Of a DNA stretch of 64,000 bases, positions 31,878-38,373 are shown one piece after another. Location: the NCBI RefSeq assembly GCF_009602705.1, contig NZ_VSWH01000001.1, positions 2,232,001 through 2,296,000 on the forward strand, given 5' to 3'. How positions within the stretch are numbered: position 1 is the first letter of the stretch; every line of letters begins with the position of its first letter. Made by a program: the position numbers and the translations under genes. The notes under the pieces are model-generated. The model had not been told where the DNA came from, made no database searches, and was given only the letters and a program-made list of their open reading frames with translations. Origin of the DNA: Chryseobacterium vaccae (GTDB taxonomy: Bacteria; Bacteroidota; Bacteroidia; Flavobacteriales; Weeksellaceae).

Positions 31878-31969
31878 CAGCGGAAAAATAAAATGGAGAC
31901 CAGAAACCATTTATCAAACGGGGCAGATTCCGAAAAGCCATATGAGTAGGGAAACTAATCAATATAAAA

Positions 31970-33331
31970 ATGAAAACATTTTCACAAAACTGGATGAGCC
32001 ATCTTCCCAATCATCTGAAAATTACTGATCTTACTATTCCCGGAACTCATGACAGCGGAACTTATCCGGCCTGGGATTCAAGCTACCTTACCAAATGCCA
32101 GTCCCTGAACATCTCTGAACAGTTAAATGCAGGTATACGATTTCTGGACATCCGTTTAAAACGCGGAACGCGGGCAGACAAGGATCATGTGCTCTGGGTG
32201 TATCATGGGATTGCAGATATGGATATCAGTTTCAGCGGAACCATTATGAATGAATGTCAGAAATTTCTTTCAGAAAACCCGGGAGAAACCATACTGATGT
32301 CCATCAAAAATGAAAGTGACCCCGACAGCAGTAAAGACAAAAACAAATTCTATGATGATCTGACCGGATCTGTCAATATAGGACATTTCCCGGGCCTTTT
32401 CTACACAGAAAACCGAATACCCGCATTGAGTGAAGTAAAGGGAAAAATAGTGCTCCTCCGTCGGTTTGGACTGGGAGACCGGGCTGACATAGGAATTGAC
32501 CTTTATGACCAATGGCCGCATGACAGCACCAAAGAATTCAGCAATCACGGCATCGCCTTGTATGTTCAGGACAGGTATGATGACTGGAAAGATGATATAG
32601 AAGATAAATTCATAAAGGCTGTAAAACCTGTCCTGGAAAAAGCTTCATCATCACTTCCGGACAGTCTTTTCATTAATTTTACCAGTGGAACCAGCGGTAA
32701 TATATTTTATGAAGGACCAAGAGGCATTGCAGAAATTGTCAACCGTCTTTTTTTTAATTATCTGTATAACAAACCTAAATCCCGATATGGAATTATTCCG
32801 ATGGATTTTCCGGAAATCCCGCAGGATAAAGCCCTGATTAATCGTCTTTTCTCCTGTAACCCTTTTTCTTTCAGTTCTGAAACCATGCAACACGGACAGA
32901 TTTATGAAGTTCGTACAAGACTGGACCTTAACAAATGTATGGATGTCAATCAAAACAGCCAGCAGGACGGAACCCCAATCATTGTGCATACCGCAAACGG
33001 CCAGCCCAATCAAAGATGGAAACTGGAAGCTGCGGGAGACGGTTATTTCTATCTGCATGCCCAGAATACTCCCGACTCTGTTCTGGATGTAAATGGCTTA
33101 GGAAAAACTGACGGAACAGCTGTTATTCTTCAGAAAAAGAATGGCGGGGATAATCAGAAATGGAAAATCAACCGTCTGGAAAACGGATACTTCACCTTAA
33201 ATCCAAAACATATTTCCACCATGTCACTTGATTTATTTGGGGCATCAACAGAAAACGGATCATTAATTAAAATTTTCCAGGCTTCAACCGGTGACTGGGC
33301 AGAGCAATGGGCATTTATTCCGGTAAGATGA
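31970..33331 (+). CDS. PI-specific phospholipase C-type enzyme with ricin-type lectin domain
   Basis: The 453-residue protein has a PI-PLC X-like TIM-barrel over about residues 10-300: general base H27 in IPGTHDSG, R62 in LDIRL, H79 in WVYHG, and ILMSIKNE later on. A ricin B-type trefoil follows (about 310-453) with QxW-type repeats (NGQPNQRWKLE, GGDNQKWKIN, WAEQWAFIP). Bacterial members cleave phosphatidylinositol or its glycan-linked forms and serve nutrient release or virulence; the lectin would direct it to glycans. I find neither signal peptide nor T9SS sorting domain, and the codon just upstream is a stop, so export is unexplained. Confidence 0.88.
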   Translation: MKTFSQNWMSHLPNHLKITDLTIPGTHDSGTYPAWDSSYLTKCQSLNISEQLNAGIRFLDIRLKRGTRADKDHVLWVYHGIADMDISFSGTIMNECQKFLSENPGETILMSIKNESDPDSSKDKNKFYDDLTGSVNIGHFPGLFYTENRIPALSEVKGKIVLLRRFGLGDRADIGIDLYDQWPHDSTKEFSNHGIALYVQDRYDDWKDDIEDKFIKAVKPVLEKASSSLPDSLFINFTSGTSGNIFYEGPRGIAEIVNRLFFNYLYNKPKSRYGIIPMDFPEIPQDKALINRLFSCNPFSFSSETMQHGQIYEVRTRLDLNKCMDVNQNSQQDGTPIIVHTANGQPNQRWKLEAAGDGYFYLHAQNTPDSVLDVNGLGKTDGTAVILQKKNGGDNQKWKINRLENGYFTLNPKHISTMSLDLFGASTENGSLIKIFQASTGDWAEQWAFIPVR

Positions 33332-36753: not shown

Positions 36754-36966
36754 AACGGCCTACGCGGTTCTATAATAAGAGAAGATTTACTCTGTTTTGG
36801 AAATGAATAATTTATGGCATGGTATTGGATAAAGGAATGGCAAGTAAAATTGTTTTGAACCATTATTTTAAACCATTAGGATTGGTAAAATGATTAAAAT
36901 TTTTAAGTTTTTTTGCTAAAATATTACCTTACTTGTTCCAAACAAGGCATCTTAATGGTTTAAATA
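36754..36966. other. Intergenic region before the tyrS leader
   Basis: This AT-rich stretch has no ORF, no RNA signature and no strong stem-loop that I can see. Two ACCATTATTTTAAACCATT-like pieces near 36858-36877 form a short direct repeat. Confidence 0.4.
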
Positions 36967-36997
36967 TTGGAATTCTATGAAAAAACAGTTATATTTA
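36967..36997 (+). promoter_or_regulatory. Promoter of the tyrS leader transcript
   Basis: TTG at 36967-36969, 20 nt, TATATTTA at 36990-36997, one base off TAnnTTTG. The start should be near 37003, only a few bases before the leader ATG at 37006, so the leader peptide would be translated almost leaderless. Confidence 0.65.
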
Positions 36998-37005
36998 CAA
37001 TACAC

Positions 37006-37104
37006 ATGAAACACCTGAACAGCATATTGCGTCTTCCATTCTTCAGTGAGTATTACTCCCCGATCAGCCGTTCGGGAAGACCTTCTATATCTGTGATTCA
37101 ATAA
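37006..37104 (+). CDS. tyrS leader peptide with adjacent tyrosine codons
   Basis: A 32-codon frame: MKHLNSILRLPFFSEYYSPI followed by SRSGRPSISVIQ and TAA. Codons 16 and 17 are TAT TAC (37051-37056), a Tyr pair located 2 nt before the first arm of a competing RNA structure. It also has a Phe pair (TTC TTC). Its product is probably not functional; its translation would report the charging level of tRNA-Tyr. The gene product directly downstream, TyrS, makes Tyr-tRNA, which fits. Confidence 0.65.
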   Translation: MKHLNSILRLPFFSEYYSPISRSGRPSISVIQ

Positions 37105-37155
37105 GAATATTCTAACCAATCATATAGAGCCCGGACAACAATGTCCGGGCTTTTT
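37031..37155 (+). promoter_or_regulatory. Ribosome-mediated attenuator of tyrS
   Basis: Three exclusive pairings are visible. Segment 1 with 2: CCCGA (37059-37063) pairs with TCGGG (37072-37076), and the longer GTCTTCC (37031-37037) with GGAAGAC (37075-37081). Segment 2 with 3, the antiterminator: GTTCGGG (37070-37076) with CCCGGAC (37130-37136), 7 bp with one G-U. Segment 3 with 4, the terminator: AGCCCGGACA (37128-37137) with TGTCCGGGCT (37142-37151), a perfect 10-bp stem with a 4-nt loop and a T-run. A ribosome stalled at the Tyr codons would cover segment 1, free segment 2 and permit read-through into tyrS; normal translation would allow termination. Confidence 0.7.
37128..37155 (+). terminator. 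Attenuator terminator before tyrS
   Basis: A perfect 10-bp GC-rich stem, 4-nt ACAA loop and five T residues, ending 21 nt before the tyrS start. No gene other than the leader peptide precedes it within 370 nt, so it controls tyrS rather than ending an upstream operon. Confidence 0.85.
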
Positions 37156-37176
37156 CATTTTTAAAATTAATATAAC

Positions 37177-38373
37177 ATGATCAGTACATTACAAACAAAT
37201 GCCGCCATCATCCTCCCTGAAAACGGACTGGAACAGAAACTGAAACAGGCAGAAGAAGAGAACAGAAAACTAATGATCAAGCTGGGCTTTGATCCCACGG
37301 CTCCGGATCTTCATTTAGGCCATGCCGTAGTTCTCAAAAAACTGAAACAGTTTCAGGAACTGGGACATCAGGTTATCATTGTAGTAGGAAGTTTTACAGC
37401 AAGAATCGGAGATCCTACAGGAAAAAACAAAGCAAGAAAACCTCTGACTGCTGAAGAGGTAAATCATAATGCACAGACCTACATCAGCCAGCTTTCAAAG
37501 GTTCTTGATCCGGAGAAAACCCAAGTTGTTTTTAATTCTGACTGGCTGGATGCAGTCAGTTTTTCAGAGGTCATTCAGCTGATGTCAAAAGTAACGGTAG
37601 CCCAGCTGATGCACAGAAACGATTTCAACAAGAGGTTTACGGAAAATACACCCATTGCAATGCACGAACTGGTTTATCCTATCCTCCAGGGATTTGATTC
37701 GGTGAAGATTGAATGTGACATTGAAATGGGCGGTACAGATCAGCTCTTCAACTGTACAATGGGAAGACAGCTTCAGGAAGTTCATGATCTGCCGGCACAG
37801 ATTGTTATGTGCATGCCCCTGCTGAAAGGTCTTGACGGAAAGGAAAAAATGAGTAAATCTCTTAACAACATTATCGGACTGACGGATGAACCTAATGAAA
37901 TGTTCGGGAAAACCATGTCGATCCCGGACAGTCTTATTGATGAGTTTATTGATCTTACCACCGATTTTTCCATTGAAGAAAAGAACCATTTAAAACAAAA
38001 GATAGAAAACGGTGAAAACCCGATGAACATTAAAAAATTAATCGCCAAAAATATCATTGTCCAATACCATGATAAAGCTTCAGCAGAAGATGCTGAACAA
38101 TTTTTTGAAAATCAGTTTCAGAATAAAAATTTTGAAGAGAAAGTCTATGAAAAAGTTTTAATGAAATCTTTGAAACATCAGCATACGATTTCTTTAGTTG
38201 AACTTTGTCATCATTTAAAAAATGACCTCAGCAAATCTGCCATACGAAGACTGATTCTGAATGGAGGAATCCAGATTAATGATATCAAAATAACAGATCC
38301 TGAACAGGAAATTGAACTGAAAAAAGAAATGAAGATCAAAATCGGGAGAAGAAGTTTTTTTGAACTGGTATAA
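37177..38373 (+). CDS. tyrS: Tyrosyl-tRNA synthetase
   Basis: The 398-residue class I synthetase attaches tyrosine to tRNA-Tyr. HIGH motif: HLGH at residues 46-49 (GFDPTAPDLHLGHAVVLKKL). KMSKS motif at residues 224-228. The DQLFNCTMGRQLQ segment and the SFTARIGDPTGKNKARK loop place it in the TyrZ-like subgroup. A C-terminal S4 RNA-binding domain (SKSAIRRLILNGGIQIND) recognises the tRNA. It is preceded by a leader peptide and terminator, unlike the T-box control typical of Gram-positive bacteria. No second gene clearly shares its transcript. Confidence 0.96.
   Translation: MISTLQTNAAIILPENGLEQKLKQAEEENRKLMIKLGFDPTAPDLHLGHAVVLKKLKQFQELGHQVIIVVGSFTARIGDPTGKNKARKPLTAEEVNHNAQTYISQLSKVLDPEKTQVVFNSDWLDAVSFSEVIQLMSKVTVAQLMHRNDFNKRFTENTPIAMHELVYPILQGFDSVKIECDIEMGGTDQLFNCTMGRQLQEVHDLPAQIVMCMPLLKGLDGKEKMSKSLNNIIGLTDEPNEMFGKTMSIPDSLIDEFIDLTTDFSIEEKNHLKQKIENGENPMNIKKLIAKNIIVQYHDKASAEDAEQFFENQFQNKNFEEKVYEKVLMKSLKHQHTISLVELCHHLKNDLSKSAIRRLILNGGIQINDIKITDPEQEIELKKEMKIKIGRRSFFELV

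Follow-up and report, generated by a model that had tools for sequence, protein, structure and literature searches.

The gene for a second, dispensable tyrosyl-tRNA synthetase (TyrRS) in Chryseobacterium vaccae is very probably controlled by ribosome-mediated transcription attenuation, with a leader peptide whose control codons specify tyrosine. An earlier sequence-only reading had proposed such an attenuator for tyrS, and this proposal largely holds, as the Tyr codons are conserved and the antiterminator is complete in all 138 nonredundant loci compared, with base exchanges on both of its sides. The identity of the regulated gene was recognized in part: it encodes a TyrRS, but not the only one, being the second of its genome. 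The parts of the element, their conservation, covariation and spacing, the selection on the peptide and the absence of the element from ten housekeeping tyrS loci are established by comparison among relatives. Ribosome-mediated attenuators are known from the trp, his and pheST leaders of enterobacteria. The TyrRS leader shares with them a short open reading frame (ORF) whose control codons correspond to the amino acid handled by the gene it precedes, a terminator in front of that gene, and a segment 2 with two alternative partners, segment 1 and the terminator arm; it differs in serving tyrosine and a second TyrRS, and in that segment 1 is missing in one lineage. It further departs from the classical design in its near-leaderless start, with a promoter box 4-9 nt before the ATG and hardly any 5' UTR, and in that the peptide preceding the control codons is held and one TAT codon is invariant. 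In the window, i.e. the whole 64,000-nucleotide stretch of DNA analysed, the locus consists of the following parts:

36990..36997, plus strand: promoter -7 box TATATTTA, of the TAnnTTTG type in its relaxed form (a motif match; box position according to PMC9723704)
37006..37104, plus strand: putative leader peptide ORF, MKHLNSILRLPFFSEYYSPISRSGRPSISVIQ, 32 codons, ATG at 37006-37008 and TAA at 37102-37104
37051..37056, plus strand: control codons TAT TAC (Tyr16 Tyr17), TAT at 37051-37053 and TAC at 37054-37056
37059..37063, plus strand: segment 1, CCCGA, the anti-antiterminator, which pairs with segment 2 and begins 2 nt after the TAC
37070..37076, plus strand: segment 2, GTTCGGG, the 5' strand of the antiterminator, which pairs with the terminator arm
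37084..37090, plus strand: TCTATAT, complementary to ATATAGA at 37122-37128; the two would form a second helix of the antiterminator (backed by comparison only in leaders of the GTTCGG type)
37128..37155, plus strand: intrinsic terminator, a 10-bp stem followed by a T-run; segment 2 pairs with its left arm at 37130-37136
37177..38373, plus strand: second tyrosyl-tRNA synthetase, 398 aa, short name tyrZ (identified by TIGR00234 and by relatives in the PDB)

All the elements on which the earlier proposal was built were found in place: the ORF of 32 codons with its adjacent TAT and TAC, the CCCGA two nucleotides beyond the Tyr pair and its pairing with segment 2, the alternative pairing of GTTCGGG with the left terminator arm, and the perfect 10-bp terminator with its U-tract just upstream of the synthetase gene. 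The terminator stem, AGCCCGGACA/TGTCCGGGCT at 37128-37137/37142-37151, encloses the loop ACAA, and from the end of the T-run at 37155 it is 21 nt to the TyrRS ATG at 37177. The element had been taken to begin at 36967; the leader ORF stands, but not that start. The TTG at 36967 is merely in frame, and at the position of the ATG at 37006, 137 of the 138 nonredundant leaders have an ATG and one a GTG. The leader RNA of the window folds more stably than expected (z = -3.95, with none of 200 shuffled sequences as good), and the computed energies are -9.1 kcal/mol for segment 1 with segment 2 (37056-37090), -16.6 kcal/mol for the antiterminator (37070-37137) and -20.7 kcal/mol for the terminator (37126-37153). 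At equilibrium the terminator beats the antiterminator once its right arm is present, even when everything through segment 1 is masked, and the switch must therefore be kinetic. A further pairing in the window's ribosome-free fold, between codons 4-5 and segment 2, was rejected, since codon 4 is TTA in 79 of the 138 relatives and the pairing is broken there. Directly upstream of the leader promoter, the window carries an inverted repeat of 11 pairs (36925-36949) that resembles a terminator on the minus strand. Two other RNAs were noted elsewhere in the window, a DUF805 RNA motif (RF03081, 72.8 bits) at 31888-31957, which ends 12 nt 5' of an ORF at 31970, and a bacterial class A RNase P RNA at 1275-1599 on the minus strand.

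For the comparison, 213 loci with a TyrRS N-terminus were merged into the 138 nonredundant ones, each with a distinct leader region, which together encode 111 distinct peptides. In every one of the 138, all six positions of the segment 2 core pair with the terminator arm (G-T allowed), and a terminator was found, with a score of at least 22.7. The core occurs in two forms. GTTCGG, the form of the window, faces the arms CCGGAC (87 loci), CCGAAC (18), TCGAAC (1) and CCGAAT (1), and GCTCGG faces CCGAGC (16), CCGGGC (13) and CCGAGT (2). Among 125 distinct sequences, 97 have T-A and 28 have C-G as the second core pair, while T-G (89) and T-A (36) share the third. No arm of the GTTCGG type allows full pairing with the GCTCGG core; the GTTCGG core pairs with all arms of the GCTCGG type via G-T. 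On a tree of TyrRS with 74 leader rows, the T/C exchange amounts to two changes and the A/G exchange in the arm to seven, so that the independent events are few; this tree holds 82 of 146 distinct proteins, namely all 29 of the GCTCGG type, 45 of the 90 of the GTTCGG type and 8 of the 27 without leader. The sequence-only reading had looked to conservation of the Tyr codons and to covariation in the stems across relatives: Tyr16 (138/138), Tyr17 (136/138) and the antiterminator pairing are indeed retained; segment 1 is so in one of the two types and hardly in the other.

The spacing points in the same direction. The core starts 12-16 nt past codon 17 in 138 of 138 loci, and the gap to the terminator varies between 41 and 70 nt. 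A ribosome with Tyr16 or Tyr17 in its A site would reach about 7-10 nt past codon 17. Given this footprint, a ribosome stalled at either codon would cover segment 1 and leave segment 2, the antiterminator strand, free. A promoter box stands close to the leader start in most of the relatives: a strict TAnnTTTG box ends 4-9 nt 5' of the leader start in 82 of the 138 loci (0.95 expected from shuffles), and the relaxed form does so in 123 (7.4 expected), or in 121 if the last match alone is counted. In Flavobacterium psychrophilum, such a box is described at -12 to -5, and leaderless transcripts make up 5.5% of the mRNAs (PMC9723704). From the position of the box, we predict a transcript start near 37002 and a 5' UTR of about 4 nt in the window; across the relatives the 5' UTR should be 0-5 nt long.

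Together, these features suggest the following course of events. With transcription probably starting a few nucleotides before the leader ATG, a ribosome could bind the moment the 5' end of the transcript emerges. If enough Tyr-tRNA is available, the ribosome would pass Tyr16 and Tyr17 and, in leaders of the Chryseobacterium type, segments 1 and 2 would pair again behind it, the terminator would form and the TyrRS gene would stay off. If Tyr-tRNA is short, for example through inhibition or overload of the housekeeping TyrRS, the ribosome would stall with codon 16 or 17 in the A site and cover segment 1, segment 2 would stay accessible further downstream and take the left terminator arm, and RNA polymerase would read through into the TyrRS gene. 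In this scheme the stalling, the read-through and the tyrosine signal are what we infer.

The two forms of the core mark two leader designs, which differ in segment 1. Its CCG is present in 104 of the 107 leaders of the GTTCGG type, where the segment 1 stems of 12 sampled leaders range from -6.4 to -10.1 kcal/mol; among the 31 leaders of the GCTCGG type it is found in 2 and missing in 29. In the latter, the translating ribosome itself may hold segment 2 away from the terminator arm. The second helix behaves in a similarly type-specific fashion when the stretches are placed by the pairing core rather than by the terminator edge: at least 6 bp form in 88% of 83 distinct stretch pairs of the GTTCGG type versus 33% in shuffles, whereas in the GCTCGG type the value of 10% (21% in shuffles) is not above chance. 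With all rows placed by the terminator edge, the value of 5.64 bp does not stand out from that of shuffled stretches (5.53 bp).

The leader ORF appears to be translated, as judged indirectly from its substitution pattern. Codons 2-17 follow the consensus MKxLNxILRLPFFSxYY. Across the 49 leaders of the Chryseobacterium type that are 32 codons long, pN/pS is 0.065 over codons 2-17 (pS 0.64) and rises past the Tyr codons to 1.3 over codons 18-24 and 1.0 over codons 25-31 (pS 0.15); for all 138 leaders it is 0.14 over codons 2-17 and 0.059 over codons 7-14. By this measure codons 2-17 are held as peptide, with silent sites free, and codons 18-31 are held as RNA. The frame slips past the Tyr codons in two leaders (L040, L059). 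Pro11 is encoded by CCT in 62, CCA in 59 and CCG in 17 of the 138 leaders; at codon 19, the 107 leaders of the GTTCGG type have CCG in 101 cases and CCA in 2. The control run consists of YY in 94 leaders, YYY in 41, YYYY in one and a single Y in two. Codon 16 is TAT throughout (138/138), and on the tree it shows no codon change as opposed to 14 at codon 17; in the TyrRS genes, TAT accounts for 304 of the 708 Tyr codons. One reading of the invariant TAT is that a codon read more slowly by wobble is favoured at this position.

Two other kinds of loci served for comparison. Ten housekeeping tyrS loci, five from genomes with and five from genomes without the second TyrRS and all read from a common start, had no LRLPFF-like frame in the 200 nt upstream, and their best terminator score was 17.3 as compared to the minimum of 22.7 in the 138 leaders; in one of them (L263), a Tyr pair occurs in an ORF close to the promoter. 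A his attenuator of like design, with an alternative stem and a terminator, precedes hisG in 29 of 30 loci of the genus (L267-L296; L277 in the source genome), with leaders such as MKPNFLTVHHYHHHLC, and all 29 of these have GRCGG past the His codons and the terminator arm CCGTCTGAGT. In 29/29 the run of His codons opens with CAT CAT, both ending in U like TAT16. The his leader resembles the TyrRS leader in its ORF, its control codons and the match between GRCGG and the arm; it differs in having more control codons, a shorter ORF and a looser peptide before the control codons. When PF00800 genes were scanned in a simple way for a Phe leader, 4 of 30 loci had an ORF (L311, L315, L321, L324), and these ORFs are mutually unlike.

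The conservation of the peptide raises the question of whether it merely brings the ribosome to the Tyr codons. Arrest-peptide leaders include TnaC and ErmBL. The TyrRS leader has in common with them a conserved peptide sequence ahead of the stall site; it differs in that its putative stall codon matches the amino acid of the regulated gene. It might be speculated that the element is a hybrid, in which the nascent ILRLPFFS slows the ribosome at Tyr16 or senses, e.g., an inhibitor, with the RNA switch unchanged. We consider such a contribution of the peptide a tentative possibility. In models of attenuation, sensitivity increases with the number of control codons (PMC1183508), and the one to four Tyr codons of the control run, fewer than these models favour, count against the attenuator as read here; if the peptide aided the stalling, one or two Tyr codons would be enough. 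A strong stall by context has been described for the his leader, where a Tyr codon placed after the Ser codon UCA has this effect (PMC4046918). In favour of an active peptide, the tree requires no amino-acid replacement at K2, L8, P11, F13 or Y16, compared with 5, 9, 15, 5 and 0 codon changes, respectively, and two of the 138 leaders have a single Tyr, located at codon 16 (L220 with YL and L067 with YD). Furthermore, in the 23 genomes compared, pN/pS of the TyrRS leader is 0.118 over codons 2-15 and 0.053 over codons 7-13, compared to 0.40 over codons 2-8 of the his leader; however, the latter stretch comprises only 7 codons and has a low pS (0.28), and the his leader is thus a control of moderate value. 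The invariance of Tyr16, moreover, is also what plain attenuation predicts. A relic in one genome (G180, locus L222) bears on the same question: its leader-like ORF, MKTLNNILLLTFSPYYY..., no longer encodes R9, P11 and one of the Phe residues, and a TyrRS gene is absent downstream. The relic still contains segment 2 (GCTCGG) as well as the left arm (CCCGAGC) but breaks off before the right arm. The decay of the ILRLPFFS stretch in the absence of the gene points in the direction expected for a functional peptide, as a single case.

The protein encoded behind the leader is a TyrRS, both by its match to NCBIfam TIGR00234 (tyrS, 341 bits versus a cut-off of 113.8) and by its PDB relatives, which are TyrRS as well. 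Among the matches listed, 71 of 98 genomes of the genus have two TyrRS; the one of the window type is complete in 70 and partial in one (G021, residues 137-397), which was left out of the 70. The remaining 27 genomes have, among the matches listed, only the other TyrRS type, which is about 30% identical to that of the window. In the source genome, this other TyrRS is encoded at G000:C1:4639402-4640529 and is about 29% identical to the window protein. Judged by TyrRS sequence, Chryseobacterium indologenes CI_885 (93%) is the nearest named record among the best 80 of 164 loci. In a sample of the phylum, the window TyrRS was matched at E 1e-90 or better in 269 of 395 genomes, and none of the 27 loci examined from these matches (same phylum only, 45-49% identical) has an LRLPFF-like frame upstream. 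Carriage on plasmids was rejected: 13 records with relatives came up, every one less than 60% identical. On the TyrRS tree, the TyrRS and GCTCGG-type leader of Chryseobacterium tagetis (L160) group with those of Gelidibacter mesophilus, Arenibacter and two further genomes and not with other Chryseobacterium, which suggests that leader and gene were transferred as one cassette.

A second TyrRS might also serve as the more selective enzyme, in which case the attenuator could respond to tRNA mischarged with D-Tyr or to an analogue of tyrosine. The same ribosome would be expected to stall at an amino acid that it accepts poorly, but all 98 genomes of the genus, with or without the second TyrRS, have a D-Tyr-tRNA deacylase (PF02580). 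Deacylase and second TyrRS thus do not replace each other, a link between them was rejected, and we regard such a signal as unlikely.

The leader regularly accompanies the TyrRS gene behind it. As the set of 138 was partly found via the leader search itself, the statement rests on loci picked by TyrRS alone. The leader was present in 70 of 70 such loci of the genus, starting with ATG in 69 and with GTG in one (L017), and in 80 of 80 loci of a second such sample (the best 80 of 164), i.e. in 150 of 150 from two samples that overlap in genomes. The named genera that bear the leader are Chryseobacterium, Flavobacterium, Arenibacter, Gelidibacter, Faecalibacter and Weeksella, six in all. Searches with the leader gave 51 matching genomes among 197 from the family, five with weak matches taken as chance, and in the phylum sample 3 strong matches among 395 genomes, all from the genus, with 9 of the 12 matches weak and taken as chance; in another search this applied to 4 of 20 matches. 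The gene upstream is kept in one of the 80 named loci (best 80 of 164), and the first and second genes beyond the TyrRS gene in 16 and 36 of them, so the neighbours are not conserved. The hairpin is strong and might, in principle, be an ordinary terminator of an upstream transcript with the ORF incidental, a possibility that the initial proposal had itself raised. With the upstream gene in one of 80 loci it is not the terminator of that gene, and the constant company of leader and TyrRS, the strong selection on the ORF as peptide and the promoter box between upstream gene and leader make such an origin very unlikely. A T-box, or another RNA binding uncharged tRNA directly, as reported for B. 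subtilis tyrZ with the same kind of gene and the same presumed signal (PMC9437257), is extremely improbable here, given a Tyr-codon ORF selected as peptide and no T-box match at Rfam gathering score in the window (4227 families), none of which reaches that score at the leader.

The TyrRS leader and the T-box of B. subtilis tyrZ would share a second TyrRS, a presumed signal of uncharged tRNA-Tyr and control by transcription termination, and would differ in the sensor, which in Chryseobacterium we propose to be the translating ribosome. The conditions that control B. subtilis TyrZ have been described as unknown (PMC9437257). Attenuation as such is already known in flavobacteria: clues of leader-peptide attenuation before amino-acid biosynthesis operons have been described (PMC9723704), and the his leader is a case in the genus itself. 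The same work reports structured 5' UTRs at synthetase genes and names pheA, hisG and alaS, and not tyrS, in that section. Short ORFs in 5' UTRs of B. thetaiotaomicron have been called reminiscent of leader peptides (PMC7366714), and attenuators have been predicted at trpS2 and leuS of Streptomyces (PMC1262725; PMC4833913 is a further source cited). A description of a tyrS or tyrZ attenuator of this type was not found in the literature searched, which covered a minority of the subscription journals; the supplementary tables of PMC9723704 may list related elements.

By all comparative signs, ribosome-mediated attenuation thus extends to tyrosine and a spare synthetase in Bacteroidota. Should the peptide contribute to stalling, one or two control codons in a near-leaderless mRNA would make a sharp switch for a backup TyrRS, and classical attenuation and arrest peptides, which are usually treated apart, would be bridged; otherwise, the element would be a plain attenuator. 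Under which circumstances bacteria resort to a second TyrRS may now be put to the test.
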